Assembly (NCBI RefSeq): GCF_003258315.1
Contig: NZ_CP030032.1
Span: 2,060,001 to 2,124,000 of the forward strand
Length of the DNA: 64,000 bases
Direction of reading: 5' to 3'
DNA from: Bradymonas sediminis
GTDB taxonomy: Bacteria; Myxococcota_A; Bradymonadia; Bradymonadales; Bradymonadaceae
Shown: one piece after another, positions 32,523-48,290 of the stretch
How the letters are laid out: each line of letters begins with the position of its first letter
Position numbering within the stretch: the stretch's first letter is position 1
The notes under the pieces: generated by a model
What the model was told of the DNA's origin: nothing
Databases searched by the model: none
Seen by the model: only the letters and a program-made list of their open reading frames with translations
Made by a program: the position numbers and the translations under genes

Positions 32523-34001
<1,479 letters not shown>

Positions 34002-34075: not shown

Positions 34076-34576
34076 TCAGAGTTCCAGCAGACCATCCGGA
34101 ATCCTGAGTTGATTCTTATCATTCTTGCCTCGGCACAGCACTTTTATCTCAGGGGTCAACGCGCAACTATGGTCGCGGCCCGCCGCGACCGCGCTAAACT
34201 CACCGGCGTGCGTGATGAGACGGGGAGGGGTACCATTTTGCCCCCAACAGGTCACCGTATCCTTCGCATGTTGGCGCCGAATCGCGCAGGTATGCACGTA
34301 TCCGGCCGCGACTGATAGAAACTCGGGGTTTTGCTGCGATTCCGCCCCATAATTCGAGGGGTCTCCCCAACAAGCCACCGAATTGGCGATATGCGGGTCC
34401 GTATCGTCGAGAATACCGCAGGCAAAGGTAGCGCCGGCCGAGATCGATTTAAATTTGCGCTTGAGATCCGACGCGTTGTCGGGCGAGGCAACCCCCGTCC
34501 CCCAACAACTGACCGTCGAATCCTCGACCGCAATTCCGCAGGTATAGCCATCTCCGGCCGAGATGGTTCGACGAGC
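34076..34576 (-). pseudogene. 5'-truncated remnant of an RCC1-repeat lipoprotein gene
   Basis: The frame is open for 166 codons, from just after an in-frame TAA (34579-34577) to the stop at 34076. It encodes at least three RCC1-like blades from its first codons (TISAGDGYTCGIA, SISAGATFACGI, VAAGYVHTCAI, VAAGRDHSCALT). It has no start codon at its beginning, no ribosome binding site and no signal peptide. The only internal ATG (34378) falls in the middle of a blade. It resembles the RCC1 half of the 19.7-22.0 kb lipoprotein. It is best read as a decayed fragment, although an unusual start or a sequencing error upstream cannot be excluded. Confidence 0.7.
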
Positions 34577-35787: not shown

Positions 35788-36234
35788 GCTATTATTTGAT
35801 TCGAATCGCATAGAAATTATCGAGCGAAAGGAAGCGAGTAATAATCGCCAGGGGCACACACGACATCGGTGGCGCGCTCGCAGAGGAGACCGGTGAAATA
35901 TGTCGTTCTCAGTCGTACGCTATGGTCCTAAAAGTGCTCACGTGCTTGATTCCGGCAACGCCACGAATCACGCAGGCGTTTTCTACATAGCGGGAGTTTT
36001 GGCGCCCGACAAGGAGACTGCCAGGGAATTTATTCCATCACTCAAACGATTGGCGTATATAACTCGCCGATGCGAGTCGCATTTTGTGGGCATATTATGC
36101 TATGCGCGTGTCGGAACAAAAGCCAAACCTTTTTCGCAGCGCGACTCGATTGGTTTGATGCGCACTTGCCGCACGGTGGCGTCTTCCTTATGTTGTCGGC
36201 GTCAGGCGTCATTTTCTGAACTATCGGAGTAATT
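35788..36234. other. Divergent intergenic region, no clear gene
   Basis: 447 bp between the endopeptidase gene and the HEAT-repeat operon. The open frame at 35900-36232 has a composition and Cys/Arg content unlike the neighbours and no family resemblance, so I leave it out. GGAG near 36224 is the ribosome binding site of the HEAT gene. Confidence 0.55.
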
Positions 36235-36990
36235 ATGGGACTTCTCGACTTTCTATTTGACAAAGAACAAGCGCAAGTGCGTCGGATTCAAAAACTCAAG
36301 AAAACGCTCACCAACATGTATGTGCAGCCGCCGGAGCGTAAATACGCGATCCAGACGCTGCGCGACGAGGGCACGCCCGACGCGGTGCGCGCGCTCCTGG
36401 CGCGTTTTGAGGATAACGCCCCCAACACCACGGTCGACGGCGACGAGAAGACCTACGTCTATGAGTCTCTGGTGAGCATGTCCGCCGACCCGGATCTCGA
36501 CGTGCGCGGGATCATCACCAATTACCTGCGCGGGCGCGAAGAGAAGATCAACTGGCCGATGAAGGTCCTCACCGACCTGCTCGACTACCAGGAGATGATC
36601 AGCCTGGTGTGCGAGCTGCTGGAATCCTGCGGCGCCGACTACCAGCGAAACCCCGAGAAAAAGCAAGAGCTGGTGCTTCGCAGCGCGGACCTGCGCAGCG
36701 AAGAGCTCAGCGAGCAATTGCTGCGCTTCCTCGACGACCTCAACGAGACGATCCGTTTCCTGGCGGTCGAGGCGCTGCTCAAGCATGACTTCAAAGATCT
36801 CATCGAAGCGCCGCTGCGCGAGCGTCTGCGCGAAGAGGAGTCGCTTCGCATCGTCCAGAAAATCGCCGATGCCTTCGCCGCCAACCCCGAGTGGAAGATT
36901 CCGGAGGAGGAGCGCGAAGACGTCGAGGCCGTATTGCCCAACGAGTTCGCGCTGCACACCGAAGGCTATATCTATCAGCGACACGCCTAA
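36235..36990 (+). CDS. HEAT-repeat protein
   Basis: 251 residues, all helical and rich in Glu, Leu and Arg. It opens with MGLLDFLFDKEQAQVRRIQ, then helix pairs of HEAT type: RKYAIQTLRDEGTPDAVRAL (about 37-56), and DLNETIRFLAVEALLKHDF (about 175-195), the latter a clear HEAT signature. No signal peptide. Such proteins usually act as adaptors binding other proteins. GGAG precedes the ATG by about seven bases. It is the first gene of a three-gene operon with a degenerate nucleotidyltransferase and a J-like protein, 42 bp upstream of the former. The partner is unknown. Confidence 0.8.
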   Translation: MGLLDFLFDKEQAQVRRIQKLKKTLTNMYVQPPERKYAIQTLRDEGTPDAVRALLARFEDNAPNTTVDGDEKTYVYESLVSMSADPDLDVRGIITNYLRGREEKINWPMKVLTDLLDYQEMISLVCELLESCGADYQRNPEKKQELVLRSADLRSEELSEQLLRFLDDLNETIRFLAVEALLKHDFKDLIEAPLRERLREEESLRIVQKIADAFAANPEWKIPEEEREDVEAVLPNEFALHTEGYIYQRHA

Positions 36991-37032
36991 TTCTCCGGGG
37001 CCCCAGCGGCCCAAGATGCTGCGAGACGCGCG

Positions 37033-37827
37033 ATGCCTTTGAGCTTTGCAACCCGGCCCGGTGAGCTAAACGCCCCGGATGATATCGACCTACCCGCCCA
37101 GGTCCGCTCGGCGCAGTTTCTAAGCGCCTGGTCGGGCTCTGCGCTCTACGGCCACCAGCGCCCGCTTCGGCTTGGCGGGGTCTTCGTTGAGTCGGCCGGT
37201 GTCGTCCTGGGGCTTCGCAGTTGGAATGACGCCCGTGAGGGCGTCATCGACACGGTGCCCTACGCGATTTTCGAAGTCGAAAAGATCGTGCGCATGATGC
37301 TGCACCAGAGCGGGCTGGCCTTCGAGATTCTGGCCAGCCCGGTTCTATTTGAGACGAACTCTTCGGGCGCGGATGGCACCGGGTTTCCGGCCCGGCGCGT
37401 GGTGAACGCGGCGGTTACTCAGGGGTTATTGCATCATTATCGCGACGTCGCTCGCGGGATGCTCGACCGGCTACTCGCCGCAAAGGGGAGAGGGGCGAGC
37501 CTTGAGGATATCTTCGGGCTTGTGCGAACCGCGCTGACCGGCCGGGCGCTGATGCAGGCCGAGGTCGACTTTAACCTGGCGACCCTGCTGGTCAATCACG
37601 CATCCCCTAAGGTCGCGGGATATATCAGGAATACCGTCCCCGAAGACCTTGTAAATAAGGCCTGGTTGAATGGGTTCGCGCGCACGCTGGAGCCGCTGAT
37701 CGCATCGCTCGCGCCCGAAGATTCCGCGCTGCCGACAAACCCGACCGATTATGAGTGGCTCCACGAATTCGTGATTTCATCGCGGCTTGAGCAATACGAA
37801 AACAAGAGATCCGGGAGCCAATCGTGA
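37033..37827 (+). CDS. RlaP/YcgL-like nucleotidyltransferase-fold protein, active site apparently lost
   Basis: 264 residues. The arrangement GSALYG (45-50), then RLGGVFVES, then IDTVPYAIFEVEKIVRMMLHQSGLAFEILASPVLFE follows the RlaP/YcgL predicted nucleotidyltransferase family (PF10127), which normally reads GSxxYG...SDxDxRGVF. Here the segment between YG and GGVF is about four residues shorter and the metal-binding Asp pair is gone (HQRPLRL). The later helices (NAAVTQGLLHHYRDVARGML ... GRALMQAEVDFNLATL) also fit. A pseudo-enzyme binding nucleotide or RNA is one reading; the family call itself needs checking. The stop overlaps the next start (ATGA). Confidence 0.6.
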   Translation: MPLSFATRPGELNAPDDIDLPAQVRSAQFLSAWSGSALYGHQRPLRLGGVFVESAGVVLGLRSWNDAREGVIDTVPYAIFEVEKIVRMMLHQSGLAFEILASPVLFETNSSGADGTGFPARRVVNAAVTQGLLHHYRDVARGMLDRLLAAKGRGASLEDIFGLVRTALTGRALMQAEVDFNLATLLVNHASPKVAGYIRNTVPEDLVNKAWLNGFARTLEPLIASLAPEDSALPTNPTDYEWLHEFVISSRLEQYENKRSGSQS

Positions 37828-38780
37828 TTCAGGTGCTTCTTATCGGCCGCGACGCGGCCGCGTGGGGCGGGGCGCTTGGGGCGCGCGGGGGAGCTGGTTT
37901 TGAGTTCAACTCCGTCGCGCTGCCGGCCGCCGGCCTTCGCCAGATCGAGGCGTCTCCGCCCGACGCGCTCATTATCGTCGAGTCTGGCTCGGCCAGGCGC
38001 GCCGCCACGTTGGTTCGCGCGATTCGCGAGCGCCCGCTAGGGCAATTGATCCCGATCTTGGTGGTCGGCCCCTCGCCCGACGAAGAGGCGCGCCGCGAGG
38101 TCGACGCATGGGTCGGCCACGAGCAAGGCGATGCGCCGCTTTGGGGCGCGCTCCAGCAGAGTTTGGGCCTTGATATGGGGCCAGCCCCCCACGGGTTTGC
38201 CGACCAGCGAACGCCCATCACCCCGATCGTGCCGCAGCGCCAACCGCGCTACCCGTCGCCACCGCAACCTCCGCCTAATTATGGCGCGTCGAATGCGCCG
38301 CCTGCGTATTATATCGAGCCGATTGATGTGGCGCCGCGAGCGTTAGCGCCGCCCCCTGAGCGCGAACAGGCCCCCTGGGACCGCACACCGGCGAATGAAC
38401 CGCCCCCCCAGGCACCGTGGAATCAGCCGCAGACCGTCGACCATGGGTCGATTTTCCCGTCCTCGCCCTCGCGCATTCACGACCTTGGCGGGATGCAATC
38501 GGGGGTCGATGGGCGCGCGATTCAACAAAAACTGCAGGCCGTTCGACACAAGGATTATTATGCCATCCTCGAGATTCGCCAGGGCAGCGAGACCGAGGTG
38601 GTACGCGAAGCCTACCAGCGCCTCTACCAACAATACGACCCCGATGAGGTCGAGTTCCGCGTCGCCCACCGCTTCGAGGCCGAGCTCGCCGAGATTCGCG
38701 ATGCCCTCGAAGACGCCTGGGCCGTCCTCGGCGACCCGGGGCTGCGCGAAGCCTACCTAAGCCAGGCGCTGCGCGGCTAA
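37824..38780 (+). CDS. Receiver-like domain plus degenerate J-domain protein
   Basis: 318 residues. Residues 1-100 alternate beta and alpha like a response-regulator receiver (VLLIGRD, PDALIIVESGS, LIPILVVG), but where the phosphorylated Asp would sit there is Val-Glu. A long Pro-rich linker (about 125-225) follows. The C-terminal ~75 residues match a J-domain (KDYYAILEIRQGSETEVVREAYQRLYQQYDPDE). However, the HPD tripeptide needed to stimulate Hsp70 is DPD. Both domains thus look like non-catalytic binding modules. It overlaps the pseudo-nucleotidyltransferase by 4 bp. Function unknown. Confidence 0.7.
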   Translation: MIQVLLIGRDAAAWGGALGARGGAGFEFNSVALPAAGLRQIEASPPDALIIVESGSARRAATLVRAIRERPLGQLIPILVVGPSPDEEARREVDAWVGHEQGDAPLWGALQQSLGLDMGPAPHGFADQRTPITPIVPQRQPRYPSPPQPPPNYGASNAPPAYYIEPIDVAPRALAPPPEREQAPWDRTPANEPPPQAPWNQPQTVDHGSIFPSSPSRIHDLGGMQSGVDGRAIQQKLQAVRHKDYYAILEIRQGSETEVVREAYQRLYQQYDPDEVEFRVAHRFEAELAEIRDALEDAWAVLGDPGLREAYLSQALRG

Positions 38781-39021: not shown

Positions 39022-39648
39022 ATGGCAATTCTAGATATTGTCCTATTTCCGGAAGAACGCGAAGTGCTCACCACGATGTGTGAGCCAGTCGAAGAGGTCA
39101 CCGATGAGATTCGCACGCTCGTCGACGACATGATCGAGACGATGTACCACGCCAATGGCGTCGGGCTGGCGGCGCCGCAGATCGGCGTGACCAAGCGCGT
39201 GACGGTCATCGACATTCGCCGCCGCCCCAGCGACGAGAAGCCGCCCGAGGGCGAGGTTGAGGAGACCAAGGCGCCCCAGGAGATCTCGGAAGCCGAAGAC
39301 AAGGTCTTCGTGCTGATCAACCCGGAGATTCTCGAGCGCGAAGGTAAGCTAAAATGGGAAGAGGGTTGCTTGAGCTTCCCCTCGCTCTACGGCGAAGTCG
39401 TGCGCGCAAATAAGGTCAAAGTCCGCGCGCTCGACCGCGACGGCGAACCCTACGAATTTGAGGCCGAAGGCCTGCTCGCGGTCGCGCTGCAGCACGAAAT
39501 CGACCACCTCGATGGCGTGCTCTTCCTGGACCGCATGAGCCGGCTGAAGCGCCGCATGGCTCAAAAAGAATATAAGAAAATCCGCGCGCGTATGTTGGAA
39601 GAAGCGCTCGAAAAAGAAGAGGAAGAGAGTGGTTCAGACATCTCCTGA
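39022..39648 (+). CDS. def: Peptide deformylase
   Basis: 208 residues. It removes the formyl group from the N-terminal methionine of nascent proteins. The three motifs are intact: GVGLAAPQIG (46-55), EEGCLSFP with metal ligand Cys116, and QHEIDHLDG with ligands His158 and His162 and catalytic Glu159. Between motifs 1 and 2 there is an extra acidic stretch of about 22 residues (about 69-92) compared with E. coli Def. It is the first gene of def-fmt-rsmB-rpe, a widespread arrangement. The fmt start lies inside its last codons. Confidence 0.95.
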   Translation: MAILDIVLFPEEREVLTTMCEPVEEVTDEIRTLVDDMIETMYHANGVGLAAPQIGVTKRVTVIDIRRRPSDEKPPEGEVEETKAPQEISEAEDKVFVLINPEILEREGKLKWEEGCLSFPSLYGEVVRANKVKVRALDRDGEPYEFEAEGLLAVALQHEIDHLDGVLFLDRMSRLKRRMAQKEYKKIRARMLEEALEKEEEESGSDIS

Positions 39649-40657
39649 GAACGAAAATAATACCGAGAAGACCGCGCTGCGCGTGGTCTATATGGGCACC
39701 CCCGACTTCGCGGTCCCCGCGCTAAAGGCGCTGATCGCCAGCCACCACGAGGTGGTCGGCGTGTTCACGCAGCCGGACCGAAAGGGCGGGCGCGGCAAGA
39801 AATTGCTCTGCCCGCCGGTTAAGGTCGAGGCGGTTGAGGCCGAGATTCCGGTGTATCAGCCCGAGCGCGTGCGCAAGAACGCCGACGTGCTGCAGACGCT
39901 CAAAGACCTGCGCCCCGACGTGGTCGTGGTCGCGGCTTATGGGCAGATCTTGCCGCAATCGGTGCTCGACGTGCCGCGCCTTGGCTGCATCAATATCCAC
40001 GCGTCGATTCTTCCGAAATACCGCGGCGCGGCCCCCATTAACTGGGCCATCGTCCACGGCGAGAAAGAAAGCGGCGTGACGCTGATGCAGATGGAAGCCG
40101 GCCTGGACACCGGGCCCATCCTGGAGATTCATCGCGTGGCGATTACCCCCGCGATGAACGCCCAGGAGTTGCACGACGCGCTCTCCGACCTGGGCGGCGA
40201 AGTGCTGGTCGACGCGCTCGACAAGCTCGAAGCGGGCAACCTGCCGGCGACCATCCAGGACGACGACGCCTCCAGCTACGCGCCGATGCTCACGCGTGAA
40301 AGCGGCCGCATTGACTGGGAGAAGTCGGCCCAGCAATTGGTCGATCATATCCGCGGCTTCTATCCGTGGCCGGGCTCCTACGCGCTGCGCGAGATCCCTT
40401 GCGCCGAGGCCGGCGCCCAGGACGACCTCGAGTGCAGCACGCTCAAGGTCCACGCCGCGCGCGTGGCCGTCGGCGCGGGCTCGGACGCCTTGCCGGGCAC
40501 GATTATCCAGGCCGACTGCTCCTCGGGAACGCTTCAAATCGCCACCGGCGAGGGCGTCATCGAATTGCTCAAGGTCCAGGCTCCGGGAAAGCGCGCGATG
40601 AAGGCGCGTGACTTCCTCAACGGCTGTGATTTTTCGGTCGGCGAGCGACTTCTTTGA
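39629..40657 (+). CDS. fmt: Methionyl-tRNA formyltransferase
   Basis: 342 residues starting with GTG 39629, which has GGAAGA just upstream within def (20-bp overlap). Fmt formylates initiator Met-tRNA, the step reversed on proteins by Def. RVVYMGTPDFAVPAL is the N-terminal signature. INIHASILPKYRGAAP holds the catalytic Asn/His of the formyl-transferase site. The C-terminal OB-like domain begins near residue 225. An ATG at the family-typical MGTPDF position would remove the first beta strand, so the GTG start is preferred. Translationally coupled to def. Confidence 0.93.
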   Translation: MVQTSPENENNTEKTALRVVYMGTPDFAVPALKALIASHHEVVGVFTQPDRKGGRGKKLLCPPVKVEAVEAEIPVYQPERVRKNADVLQTLKDLRPDVVVVAAYGQILPQSVLDVPRLGCINIHASILPKYRGAAPINWAIVHGEKESGVTLMQMEAGLDTGPILEIHRVAITPAMNAQELHDALSDLGGEVLVDALDKLEAGNLPATIQDDDASSYAPMLTRESGRIDWEKSAQQLVDHIRGFYPWPGSYALREIPCAEAGAQDDLECSTLKVHAARVAVGAGSDALPGTIIQADCSSGTLQIATGEGVIELLKVQAPGKRAMKARDFLNGCDFSVGERLL

Positions 40658-40718: not shown

Positions 40719-42089
40719 ATGCCCCGCCAACTCGCACAAGAAGTATTGGAGGGCATCGAAGAAGAAGATGCCTATAGTCATATCTCGCTGGACGCCGCGC
40801 TGCGCCGAAGCAACCTGGACGCGCGCGACCGCGGCCTGGCGACCGAGCTGGTCTACGGCACGCTGACCTGGCAGCGCTCGCTCGACACAATCCTGGGGCA
40901 ATTTCTCGCCAGCGGGGTCGCCTCCCTCGATTTGTCGGTGCGCGTCGCGCTGCGCCTGGCGGTCTACCAGATCGTATTTTTGGACCGCATCCCGCCGCAC
41001 GCGGCGGTCAATCAGGCCGTCGAGATCGTCAAAGCCGGCCCGCATCGGCGCGCCAGTGGCCTGGTCAACGGGGTGTTGCGCAACCTTTTGCGCCAGGAGG
41101 AACCGATTCAATGGTGGCGCGACGAGGACCGCAAGAAGAAGCCATCCCGCTATATCGGGCAGCGCTATTCCATCCCCAATTGGCTGGGCCATCGGATGTT
41201 GCAGACCTGGGGGCTGCGCCACGCCGAGGCGATGGCCGCATCCTTCGCGGAGCGACCGCCGCTGTATCTGCGAAAGATCGAAGCCATCGACTCCGCCGAC
41301 GAATCAAAGCTCCCCGAAGGCGTGTCGCCAGCTCAATTTGGCGATCACCCGGCGATTCCTGGCGCGTATCTGGCCGAGTCGATTGACGACACGGTGCGCA
41401 AGGGCCTGGAGCAGGGCGAGTGGGTCGTGCAAGACCTGGGAAGCCAGCTTATCGGGTATTATACGGGCGCAAACGAGGGCATGAGCGTGCTCGACGCCTG
41501 CGCCGGCCTCGGCGGCAAAACCCTGCATCTGGCCGATCTGGTTGGCCAAACCGGTACGGTCAACGCGGTCGACCCGGTGCAATCGAAGCTGCAGATGCTC
41601 CGGGAATCCGCCGAGCAAACCGGACTCCTGCCGCGCATCGCCACGCATAAACAGGAGCTCCAGGGCTATATTGACGCCGACGCCACGCGCGATGCGCCCA
41701 AGGAATTCGACCTGGTCCTGCTCGACGCGCCTTGCAGCGGGCTCGGCGTGATTCGCCGCCACCCAGAAACCCGTTGGCGTCGCGAGAAGTCCGACATTAT
41801 CGAGCTCGCCGAGATCCAAAAGAAGCTGCTCGAAGTCGCCGCCGGCCTGACCAAAAGCGGCGGCATCCTCGCCTATAGCGTGTGCACCTTTACGCGCGAA
41901 GAGGGAGCGGGGCAGGTCGCAAGCTTTTTAGAAGAACACCCCGAGTTCGAGCTTATCGGGCCGCCCACTGAGGGCCCGGGCGCGCAGATTGATTGGGCGC
42001 CTTATCTCAATGACGACGGGCAACTTTTTCTGAATCCCCTGGAGCACGGCACCGACGGCTTCTTCGCCGCGCGCCTTCGCCGTCGCTGA
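40719..42089 (+). CDS. rsmB: 16S rRNA m5C967 methyltransferase
   Basis: 456 residues. An N-terminal NusB-like RNA-binding domain (about 1-140: LATELVYGTLTWQRSLD, RVALRLAVYQIVFLDRIP) precedes a Rossmann methyltransferase. DACAGLGGKTLHLADL is the S-adenosylmethionine-binding motif. DAPCSGLG carries Cys339 (release) and YSVCTF the catalytic Cys389. All RsmB/Sun features are present. It methylates C967 of 16S rRNA during ribosome assembly. It starts 61 bp after fmt and 23 bp before rpe. Confidence 0.93.
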   Translation: MPRQLAQEVLEGIEEEDAYSHISLDAALRRSNLDARDRGLATELVYGTLTWQRSLDTILGQFLASGVASLDLSVRVALRLAVYQIVFLDRIPPHAAVNQAVEIVKAGPHRRASGLVNGVLRNLLRQEEPIQWWRDEDRKKKPSRYIGQRYSIPNWLGHRMLQTWGLRHAEAMAASFAERPPLYLRKIEAIDSADESKLPEGVSPAQFGDHPAIPGAYLAESIDDTVRKGLEQGEWVVQDLGSQLIGYYTGANEGMSVLDACAGLGGKTLHLADLVGQTGTVNAVDPVQSKLQMLRESAEQTGLLPRIATHKQELQGYIDADATRDAPKEFDLVLLDAPCSGLGVIRRHPETRWRREKSDIIELAEIQKKLLEVAAGLTKSGGILAYSVCTFTREEGAGQVASFLEEHPEFELIGPPTEGPGAQIDWAPYLNDDGQLFLNPLEHGTDGFFAARLRRR

Positions 42090-42112: not shown

Positions 42113-42823
42113 ATGACGCATCGCCACAAAAGACGCCCCAACGCGCTCCCCGCCCACCAGCCGCTGCTCGCCCCGTCGATCTTATCGGCGAACTTCACCC
42201 GCCTGGCCGAGGAGTGCCAGGCCGTAATCGATGGCGGCGCGGACCTGCTGCATATCGACGTGATGGACGGGCATTTCGTCGAGAATATCACCATCGGCTT
42301 GCCGGTGGTCGAGGCGCTTCGCGCGGAGTTTCCGGACACCTTCCTGGACGTCCATATTATGATCTCGAACCCCGACCTCTACGCGGCGAAATTCGTCGAG
42401 GCGGGCGCGGACTCGGTCTCATTTCACCCCGAGGCGACGGTTCACTCACACGGCGTTATTCAGGAAATCCACGCCGCCGGCGGCCTCGCCTCGCTGGCCA
42501 TCAACCCGTCGACCTCCCTCGATGTGCTCGACTATATTATCGAGGACCTCGACATGATCCTCATCATGGGCGTGAACCCCGGTTTTGGGGGGCAATCCTT
42601 CATTCCGCAAACCATGCGCAAGCTCAAAGACGTGAAGGAGCGGCTCGCCCGCCACGGCATCGATGATATGCCGATTCAGGTCGATGGTGGCGTAAAGCTC
42701 AACAATATCGCCGAGATCTATCAGGCCGGCGCCAATGTCCTCGTCTCCGGAAGCGGGGTCTTTAATAATAAGCCGTATAAAGATACGATATCCGCAATGA
42801 AGGCCGAACTACAGCCTCTTTAG
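42113..42823 (+). CDS. rpe: Ribulose-phosphate 3-epimerase
   Basis: 236 residues forming a TIM barrel. Converts ribulose 5-phosphate and xylulose 5-phosphate in the pentose phosphate pathway. Signatures: LAPSILSANFTRLAEE, HIDVMDGHFVENITIG (metal His and catalytic Asp), ISNPD, MGVNPGFGGQSF and QVDGGVKLNNI (second catalytic Asp). Preceded by a GGAG site nine bases upstream. It has a short basic N-terminal extension of about 17 residues before the usual start. Last gene of the def cluster; the following lipoprotein gene starts 27 bp later but belongs to a different functional class. Confidence 0.95.
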   Translation: MTHRHKRRPNALPAHQPLLAPSILSANFTRLAEECQAVIDGGADLLHIDVMDGHFVENITIGLPVVEALRAEFPDTFLDVHIMISNPDLYAAKFVEAGADSVSFHPEATVHSHGVIQEIHAAGGLASLAINPSTSLDVLDYIIEDLDMILIMGVNPGFGGQSFIPQTMRKLKDVKERLARHGIDDMPIQVDGGVKLNNIAEIYQAGANVLVSGSGVFNNKPYKDTISAMKAELQPL

Positions 42824-42850: not shown

Positions 42851-45118
42851 ATGAGATTACGTTATTTGGGTGTATTTTTGGCCGCTTGTTTGCTCTGGCC
42901 AGCAGGTTGCAGTTTCGATGGTACCGCGAGCGGGACGATCAGCCCCAACCCTTCGCAAGACGTTCGCCAGGCCGATAGCGGCGGGCTTTCGGACATCATT
43001 GAAGATGGCGCCGGCGGCGAAGATACGCGGGACGAAGACGGCGGCGGTGAAGACGACGCGGGCTCGGGTGAGGACGCCTCGGATGGCGGCGACGCGTCCG
43101 ACGCGGTCGACGCCGGAGATGTCTGCGGCGATGGCGTGGTCTCGGGGAACGAAGCCTGCGATGACGGGAATACCGACTCGGGCGACGGCTGCGACTCAAG
43201 CTGCCAGATCGAAACCGGCTGGGCGTGTCCAGACGCGGGCGAGGCCTGCGAAGCGGCGTCCTGCGGCGACGCGATCATCGCCGGCGATGAGCAATGCGAC
43301 GACGGAAATCGACGAAACGGCGACGGCTGCGACTTCGCTTGCCAGGTCGAGACCGGCTACCAATGCCTGGTCCCCGGTGAGCCCTGCGTGCCCGCCGGCT
43401 GCGGCGACGGCATTCAGGTGCGCGGCGAGGAATGCGACGACGGGAATAATATTTCGGGCGATGGCTGCAGCGCGACGTGTCGCGCGGAGACCGGGTTCGA
43501 ATGCCCCTTTGGCGGCGGCGCCTGCACCTCGAATGTGGTGTGCGGCGACGGCCAAATCGGCGGCGCCGAATTATGTGACGACGGCAACCTGATCGCCGGC
43601 GATGGCTGTGACTCCAACTGCCAGCCAGAGCCGGGATGGCGCTGCCAGATTCCCGGCCAGCCGTGCGAGGCGGCGCGCTGCGGCGACGGCGTAGTCGCCG
43701 GCAATGAAGAGTGCGACGACGGAAATAACACAGCCGGGGACGGCTGCGATGCGCTCTGCAAAATCGAGCCGGGGTTCACCTGCAGCGCCGGCGGCGCGAG
43801 CTGCGTCGCCACGGTCTGCGGCGACGGCATCCGCCAGGGCAGTGAGGCCTGCGACGACGGAAATAACGACCTCGGCGACGGCTGTACGCCGTTCTGCACC
43901 CTCGAGCCCACCTGCCCGGACGGCGGCGGCGCGTGCAGCTCATCCTGCGGCGACGGCATCCGCCTGGCCGGCTCCTCAAAAGAGTGCGAGGACGGAAATA
44001 CCACGCCCGGTGACGGCTGCAGCCCGACCTGCACCGTCGAGCCCGGTTTTGTGTGCAACGACGTCACTCAGGAGGTCGATGAGTTGACGCTCCCGCTGGT
44101 CTTAAGAGACTTCTCCATCGACCATCCGGACTTCGAGCATTTCAGCGGCAGCGGCGCGACCACCGGGATGGTCAAAGACCTGCTGGACGCCGACGGTAAG
44201 CCCGAATTCCTCGCGCCTCGCGGGATGCTCACCAGCGCCGCGACCTTCTACCAATGGTATCGCGACGTCCCCGGGGTCAATCAGACCTTCGTGCAGTCGA
44301 TGACCCTGAGCGAAATCTCACCCGGAACTTTCCAATATAGCAATACCGAGTTCTTCCCGCTGGACGGGCTGGGCTACGGTTTTGAGCCGGGCTTTGGCGC
44401 CAATCATAACTACGCGTTCACCAGTGAGGTGCGCTATTGGTTCGTCTACCGTCCCGGCCAGGTGCTGACGTTCAGCGGCGACGATGACCTCTGGGTCTTC
44501 ATCAACAAGCAGCTCGCCCTTGACCTGGGCGGGCTGCACGCGCGCGTCGATGGAACGGTGGATTTGGACGCGCAAAAGGCCGCGCTTGGGCTGCAAGATG
44601 ACGCGCTCTACGAGGTCGCGGTCTTCCAGGCCGAGCGCCACTCCACCGGCTCAAATTACACGCTCACGCTGGGCAATTTCGTCAACGTCACCACCGAATG
44701 CGAGAGCATCTGCGGCGACGGCATCCAGACGCGCGACGAGGCCTGCGACGACGGCGTCAACGACGGCTCCTATGGCGGATGCAACGCGGATTGCTCGCGC
44801 GGGCCGTATTGCGGCGACGGCGACCTCGACCCCGAGATGGAGCAATGTGACAACGGCGTGAACCAGGACCTCTACGGCGAGAACGGCTGCGCGCCGGATT
44901 GCCGCCGACCCGCTTATTGCGGCGACGGCGCGGTCGACAGCCTCTTCGGCGAAGAGTGCGACGACGGCACCAATGACGGCAGCTACGGCACCTGCACGCC
45001 GGACTGCAAGCTCGCCGCACGCTGCGGGGACGGCATCGTCCAGGACAACGAAGCCTGTGACGACGGCAACGCCATCAGCGGCGACGGCTGCTCGAGCACC
45101 TGTCAGGTAGAGGGCTAA
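42851..45118 (+). CDS. Lipoprotein with DUF4215-type Cys-rich repeats and a fibro-slime domain
   Basis: 755 residues. A signal peptide and lipobox-like WPAGC (Cys20) are followed by an Asp/Gly-rich spacer. About eight DUF4215 repeats come next (pattern CGDG...G-EECDDGN...GDGCD..C..E.G..C, about 90-405). A fibro-slime/PA14-like domain follows (about 408-617: LVLRDFSIDHPDFEHFSG ... FSGDDDLWVFINKQLALDLGG), then three or four more Cys-rich repeats. These combinations are typical of myxobacterial surface proteins; the fibro-slime name comes from Dictyostelium matrix proteins. Inferred role: cell-surface carbohydrate or matrix binding. The repeat DNA is self-similar, so repeat number may vary. Confidence 0.88.
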   Translation: MRLRYLGVFLAACLLWPAGCSFDGTASGTISPNPSQDVRQADSGGLSDIIEDGAGGEDTRDEDGGGEDDAGSGEDASDGGDASDAVDAGDVCGDGVVSGNEACDDGNTDSGDGCDSSCQIETGWACPDAGEACEAASCGDAIIAGDEQCDDGNRRNGDGCDFACQVETGYQCLVPGEPCVPAGCGDGIQVRGEECDDGNNISGDGCSATCRAETGFECPFGGGACTSNVVCGDGQIGGAELCDDGNLIAGDGCDSNCQPEPGWRCQIPGQPCEAARCGDGVVAGNEECDDGNNTAGDGCDALCKIEPGFTCSAGGASCVATVCGDGIRQGSEACDDGNNDLGDGCTPFCTLEPTCPDGGGACSSSCGDGIRLAGSSKECEDGNTTPGDGCSPTCTVEPGFVCNDVTQEVDELTLPLVLRDFSIDHPDFEHFSGSGATTGMVKDLLDADGKPEFLAPRGMLTSAATFYQWYRDVPGVNQTFVQSMTLSEISPGTFQYSNTEFFPLDGLGYGFEPGFGANHNYAFTSEVRYWFVYRPGQVLTFSGDDDLWVFINKQLALDLGGLHARVDGTVDLDAQKAALGLQDDALYEVAVFQAERHSTGSNYTLTLGNFVNVTTECESICGDGIQTRDEACDDGVNDGSYGGCNADCSRGPYCGDGDLDPEMEQCDNGVNQDLYGENGCAPDCRRPAYCGDGAVDSLFGEECDDGTNDGSYGTCTPDCKLAARCGDGIVQDNEACDDGNAISGDGCSSTCQVEG

Positions 45119-46566: not shown

Positions 46567-46940
46567 GGGGTCTCCTTTTGTCGGTATATAAAAGGCCAAA
46601 ATCGCCTAGTCGTCTAACACGGCATGGTTAGCATCTTTGATCGTGCTTGTCAGGTTTTTAGTGCAATGGTGCCCACAAGGCATATATTTCGAAAATATTT
46701 TCAGGCGACGATCACCGCGCATTTTCCAACGCGATCTGGGCATTCAGGCCCCCAAAGGCCCGAAATTTATAGCCGCGCAGCCCCAATACACTTGTGGGTG
46801 CAGAGGCCAGTTGATACTTTGTGAACAGATAGAACAGATGTTGAATGCCGGGCGATAAGTCTTGACCTGAATCAAAATGACCTGCGTTCCCGTGTCACGG
46901 GCAGCGCGAAAGCATTGACCATTAAATGATCGGAGCGAAT
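46567..46940. other. Divergent intergenic region
   Basis: 374 bp with no convincing gene, between the leftward RdgC-like operon and the rightward TSP3 gene. Promoters of both are expected. GGAG at 46931-46934 is the ribosome binding site of the TSP3 gene. Confidence 0.5.

Positions 46941-48290
<1,350 letters not shown>

Follow-up and report, generated by a model that had tools for sequence, protein, structure and literature searches.

A Bradymonas sediminis locus of HEAT, nucleotidyltransferase-fold and receiver/J-like proteins that may act by binding rather than catalysis

What do protein folds known from signalling and catalysis do when the residues of their chemistry have gone, and the folds are kept? 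The question is raised by three adjacent genes of Bradymonas sediminis, which lie in the stretch of 64,000 nucleotides analysed here (NZ_CP030032.1, positions 2,060,001 to 2,124,000 of the forward strand; hereafter the window) in a genome consisting of a single contig of 5.05 Mb. They encode, in order, a HEAT-repeat protein (HEAT), a nucleotidyltransferase-fold protein (NT) and a receiver/J-like protein (RJ). A preliminary description had read them as linked genes for a HEAT adaptor, an RlaP-like fold without its Asp pair, and a receiver-like domain without phospho-Asp joined to a J-domain with DPD for HPD, and had proposed a regulatory or scaffolding complex of pseudo-enzymes. Our preferred reading, to which we give a probability of about one half, is that HEAT-NT-RJ is a docking (scaffold or adaptor) module acting by binding, not by catalysis. 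In what follows, f1 is the family of the window organism and f2 to f7 are the other families of its class.

All three open reading frames were confirmed on the same strand, as first described (Table 1). The stop of NT and the start of RJ share 4 bp (GTGA), and HEAT ends only 42 bp upstream of NT, so co-transcription of the three genes is likely, judged from this spacing. RJ is separated from def by 241 bases, in which a promoter/terminator scan gave no site. An open frame of 110 codons preceding HEAT (35900-36232) had no family match above cut-off, and we did not treat it as a gene.

Table 1. Features of the HEAT-NT-RJ locus and its downstream neighbours (window coordinates).
Feature	Position	Strand	Description
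HEAT	36235..36990	+	251 aa; predicted HEAT-repeat adaptor
HEAT conserved N-terminus, MGLLDFLFDKEQ	36235-36270	+	
NT	37033..37827	+	264 aa; pseudo-nucleotidyltransferase of predicted RlaP/HalB fold
NT remnant of the G-S...D-x-D loop, SGSALYGHQRPLRLGGVFV	37132..37188	+	Gly retained, both Asp lost
NT best-conserved stretch	37270..37341	+	E83, R87, L90, Q92, S93 and A96 invariant (n=12 homologs)
RJ	37824..38780	+	318 aa; predicted pseudo-receiver, linker and J-like domain; GTG start
RJ receiver-fold domain	37824..38177	+	without phospho-Asp, acidic pair and Lys
RJ linker	38178..38510	+	low model confidence, presumably disordered
RJ linker motif 1, YYIEPIDV	38307..38330	+	Glu165 invariant in 18/18
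RJ linker motif 2, VDHGSIF	38436..38456	+	resembles R-V-D-R-S-S-I-F in most orthologs; two lack it
RJ J-like domain	38511..38774	+	DPD (38637-38645, residues 272-274) replaces HPD
def	39022-39648	+	named by reading the protein; conserved downstream neighbour of RJ
fmt	39629-40657	+	confirmed by family model; conserved downstream neighbour of RJ
rsmB	40719-42089	+	named by reading the protein; conserved downstream neighbour of RJ
rpe	42113-42823	+	named by reading the protein; conserved downstream neighbour of RJ

NT matched RlaP (PF10127) with 34.3 bits against a cut-off of 23, and 7/12 NT homologs gave a PF10127 match at E≤0.01. Foldseek analysis of the AlphaFold model (mean pLDDT 86) returned Hailong HalB as the best match (12/12 matches at E≤0.001), and VIA also placed HalB first (Z 10.3, rmsd 4.0, 177 residues), with AadA as the next entry outside Hailong (7.9) and HEPN/MNT entries further down (Z about 4). 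Searches against solved structures gave no match with the single NT sequence and one chance-like match (E 0.75) with an NT profile. Judged by its model, NT is of the RlaP / pol-beta nucleotidyltransferase type. A residue alignment of the 12 NT homologs with 23 RlaP domains from the same class showed the first, second and third catalytic Asp in 1/12, 0/12 and 0/12 of the homologs, against 23/23, 23/23 and 22/23 of the RlaP paralogs; the metal-binding carboxylates were all gone in 11/12 homologs. A branch with SH-aLRT 94 set the NT homologs apart. NT thus shares its fold and C-terminal helices with RlaP and HalB but lacks the Asp pair and the third Asp, and has a conserved residue set of its own. 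The catalytic pair of HalB (D21/D23 in PDB titles) is absent from NT, and no HalB-type partner was seen beside it; a literature search on HalB found no paper.

The leading position of HalB, with HEPN/MNT entries lower in the same ranking, could be taken to mean that NT is a nucleotide sensor, or the relic of a HEPN-MNT toxin-antitoxin or Hailong-like defence pair. This is very unlikely, since NT keeps a steady place in a housekeeping locus, with housekeeping genes and no HEPN or effector seen among its neighbours, has a mostly vertical history (one change over 18 rows of the HEAT tree) and has lost the metal-binding carboxylates in nearly all homologs.

Many class genomes carried intact RlaP-type genes or domains in tandem pairs, spaced by no more than about 1 kb (G034:C414, G008:C120, G011:C234, G029:C14, G032:C101, G038:C91, G051:C31, G053:C776, G055:C96 and G010:C1:2264422-2266102), both members lying inside one open frame in G008 and G011. 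These pairs suggest a paired RlaP system.

The receiver part of RJ had no Pfam match at E≤1, DnaJ being the sole RJ match at that level, and was absent from the 55 PF00072 hits of its own genome. In the RJ model the N-terminal 118 residues formed a receiver fold (Foldseek 3nhm, E 7.7e-6), with some 110 residues of low confidence between it and the J-like domain, so that for the RJ receiver, as for NT, the model agreed with the fold first proposed. VIA gave FrzS as the best match of the receiver (Z 15.2, rmsd 2.4 over 114 residues), the entries near FrzS being tied at Z 14.2-15.2. The phospho-Asp column was without Asp in 18/18 f1 RJ rows and in 10/10 older relatives from six other families (0/28 rows), counts for which a one-column alignment shift matters, as many f1 rows carry Asp or Glu one position past this column; we score the phospho-Asp as lost, since nearly all f1 rows, the window protein included, also lack the acidic pair and the Lys. 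Three f3 rows kept the acidic pair and the Lys, with Ser at the phospho-Asp position, and a separate f3 search also aligned a Ser to the Asp of MtrA; as f3 rows still have the acidic pair and the Lys, they show that the receiver decayed stepwise. Among the other receivers of the same genome (the first 30 of the 55 PF00072 hits, inspected by eye), the phospho-Asp was present in 30/30.

The match to FrzS would also fit a FrzS- or PATAN-like regulator of polarity or of type IV pili, as would DUF4388, which we take to be the PATAN domain, in older relatives of RJ. In Synechocystis, regulators with PATAN domains are reported to have PilB as a binding partner (PMC10519157). We consider a regulator of this kind quite unlikely here, since the VIA rows near FrzS are tied and DUF4388 has been lost from RJ itself. 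FrzS is also a precedent for the docking module that we prefer: the FrzS-type pseudo-receivers of M. xanthus have, as RJ does, a receiver fold without phosphorylation chemistry, and the FrzS domain, without the phosphorylation residues, binds SgmX (PMC11580455). FrzS carries a long coiled coil; RJ has a linker and a J-like domain instead.

The C-terminal part of RJ is a J domain by its DnaJ match (PF00226, 32.5 bits against a cut-off of 27.8), and PF00226 was found at E≤0.01 in 17/18 RJ members. HPD was present in 0/29 aligned rows; it was kept in 7/10 J domains of the same genome examined as a control. The losses in NT and RJ were shared by all orthologs examined. Orthologs with intact active sites were sought and none was found, the intact copies being paralogs elsewhere in genomes of the class. 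HPD absence alone is no proof of inactivity, because a designed J-domain analog works without HPD, according to one review. Type IV JDPs such as Pam16 have a recognisable J domain with HPD replaced, as in RJ, and PMC13254874 states that such HPD-less J proteins bind a functional J-protein, and raises what HPD-less J domains do as an open question. In RJ, by contrast with the Pam16 type, the J-like domain is fused to a receiver, and no Pam18-like partner was identified.

Two further proteins of the B. sediminis genome have related domains. L228 (C1, about 3492893-3495079) is a receiver-J-TPR protein with an intact HPD and appears to be the active-motif counterpart of the RJ architecture. A 794-aa protein at L188:2386-4770 matches PilZ weakly, reads FDPA for HPD in a J-like domain and ends in a TPR-like stretch; other f1 genomes encode similar proteins.

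Comparison with the other families indicated where RJ comes from. The f3 proteins preceding def-fmt measured 578-618 aa, and the one scanned (L192) contained a receiver, DUF4388 and a J-like domain. DUF4388 was detected in 4/8 scanned proteins (L192, L208, L215 and L223; not in L188, L194, L202 or L212), and RJ showed none at E≤1. These REC-DUF4388-J-like proteins of Myxococcota have, like RJ, a degenerate N-terminal receiver and an HPD-less C-terminal J-like domain and stand before (def)-fmt, whereas RJ is without DUF4388 and has also lost the receiver acidic pair and Lys. Because the relatives already have both domains degenerate, RJ is, on these comparisons, a shortened member of an older REC-DUF4388-J-like family, and the receiver and J losses predate the HEAT-NT-RJ operon. 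The receiver and J losses therefore did not arise separately in this operon but sit together in one older family. Among the papers searched, none joined DUF4388 with DnaJ, or DUF4388 with Myxococc. The comparisons point to an undescribed family of REC-DUF4388 proteins with HPD-less J domains beside def-fmt in several Myxococcota families.

The linkage to def-fmt could point to a different function for RJ, namely that it works with def-fmt-rsmB as an HPD-less J-like factor for initiation or N-terminal processing, keeping DnaK or another chaperone close to nascent chains, with HEAT and NT as later additions. RJ lay directly before def in 15/16 f1 genomes in which the stretch was visible (in the exception, G009, fmt lay about 6 kb downstream of RJ), and relatives immediately preceded def or fmt in one f2 genome, in f3 (G026, G029, G032, G038, G051 and G056) and in f4 (G033). 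Outside the class, RJ-like proteins directly preceded fmt in at least 5/90 sampled genomes (G094, G118, G125, G132 and G136) and def in G065. After control, the evolutionary rate of RJ covaried with those of fmt and rsmB (partial 0.47 and 0.52), which is compatible with a tie to def-fmt. However, only 4/17 fmt regions read outside the class had an RJ relative (13/17 lacked one), and the relative was unlinked or absent at fmt in G025, G027, G028, G030 and G035, being unlinked in all of these except G028. The partial correlations, moreover, are few and of both signs, and those of RJ are no stronger than between plain housekeeping genes, while gene neighbourhood by itself does not give function. 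A role of RJ in initiation or N-terminal processing is accordingly a minor possibility.

HEAT alone fell short of the Pfam cut-off for HEAT_2 (E 2.5e-4, 21.7 bits against 27.7), but 18/20 members of its family matched HEAT_2 at E≤0.01 (best 1.4e-10), which bears out the proposed HEAT repeats; the whole protein, searched against solved structures, gave nothing better than E 0.45. The gene was present in 21/21 f1 genomes, 52/57 genomes of the class and 207/282 sampled genomes of the phylum (class included). Outside f1, none of 40 loci examined had RJ, NT or def beside HEAT. In 13 of these 40 loci a dCache-type membrane protein was encoded within 400 bp upstream of HEAT, and in 5/40 a dCache histidine kinase, the two kinds being named from 2 and 1 scanned members, respectively. 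As far as its repeats and distribution tell, HEAT is an ordinary Myxococcota-wide HEAT adaptor and not a pseudo-enzyme. In many Myxococcota the gene for the dCache-type membrane protein immediately precedes HEAT (e.g. L112:6933-8438 and L108:7570-9021); the protein has a conserved C-terminal tail and is a candidate HEAT partner. A literature search for HEAT repeats and polarity in Myxococcus returned PomY-related papers, PomY being a larger protein than HEAT.

Across four genome pairs, dN/dS was 0.05-0.24 for HEAT, 0.18-0.40 for NT and 0.18-0.33 for RJ, compared with 0.03-0.09 for def and fmt (three pairs). All three genes are kept under purifying selection, NT and RJ being less constrained than the housekeeping genes. 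That the genes are merely decaying and functionless might be suspected from the weakness of several domain signatures, but this is scarcely credible given the purifying selection, the intact reading frames and the presence of HEAT in every f1 genome, and decay without function was rejected on dN/dS.

The HEAT-RJ interval was visible in 19/21 f1 genomes, of which 11 had NT between the two genes and 8 did not. The single change required on the HEAT tree was counted over 18 of these genomes; G015 was omitted because a contig break divides its HEAT gene, and including it would add a second NT loss. NT presence is the likely ancestral state in f1, as read from the tree. No NT was seen upstream of RJ in f2, and one orphan NT homolog was found at a contig end in G021. 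The expected co-occurrence of the three genes thus held for HEAT and RJ within f1 but not for NT, missing in 8/19, nor for HEAT outside f1, where it stands without RJ in the 40 loci examined; a fixed three-gene unit was ruled out on these two grounds. Rate covariation gave partial r values of -0.04 for HEAT-RJ (13 taxa), -0.22 for NT-RJ and 0.19 for HEAT-NT (9 taxa each), so that no pair lent support to a complex, and the missing HEAT-RJ signal makes a tight HEAT+RJ complex less favoured.

Because the losses are real, occur in every ortholog examined and are under purifying selection, non-catalytic roles are the natural reading. Docking is the simplest mechanism, because the three domains other than HEAT keep their folds although the residues needed for chemistry are gone, and the linker retains two motifs. 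We infer that NT and RJ are non-catalytic, and in the same way their binding roles, their partners and any tie to def-fmt. The proposed complex of pseudo-enzymes is accordingly supported as regards the conserved loss of active residues, but HEAT is no pseudo-enzyme, NT is often missing and HEAT-RJ covariation gave no signal.

In the docking module as we envisage it, RJ would be the platform, derived from the older REC-DUF4388-J-like regulator family upstream of def-fmt. Its receiver fold without phospho-Asp could, like that of FrzS, provide a constitutive surface for docking, and the disordered linker with its two conserved short motifs could serve as a peptide ligand. The J-like domain would bind a partner (another J-protein, DnaK or a client) and, without HPD, would not fire the DnaK ATPase, as in Pam16. 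NT may be a retired RlaP-type nucleotidyltransferase retained for its surface, and HEAT a general Myxococcota adaptor, elsewhere often adjoining membrane Cache-sensor genes, that was brought beside RJ in f1. A more specific version, which sees in the def-fmt-linked REC-(DUF4388)-J-like proteins of Myxococcota the bacterial equivalent of Pam16, and in HEAT and a retired nucleotidyltransferase the binding subunits that Bradymonadales added, is a long shot. If true, HPD-less J domains would hold or restrain DnaK/DnaJ at a particular location, either nascent chains or a site on the membrane, and an unphosphorylatable receiver would steer Pam16-like J proteins. The docking module would itself mean that three classic signalling or catalytic folds were turned, in one operon, into retained non-catalytic parts; intact paralogs in related genomes provide controls, and the f3 intermediates show the order of receiver decay. 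With the def-fmt-linked family, the question of HPD-less J domains becomes testable in bacteria.

Further from the locus, a short open frame on the reverse strand (34076-34378), near an ATP-synthase beta-like gene at 32523-33968, resembles an RCC1-repeat fragment. Downstream, the window encodes a secreted-looking Cys-rich repeat protein (42851-45118) and a second secreted-looking protein (46926-48290), whose tail is MYXO-CTERM-like.
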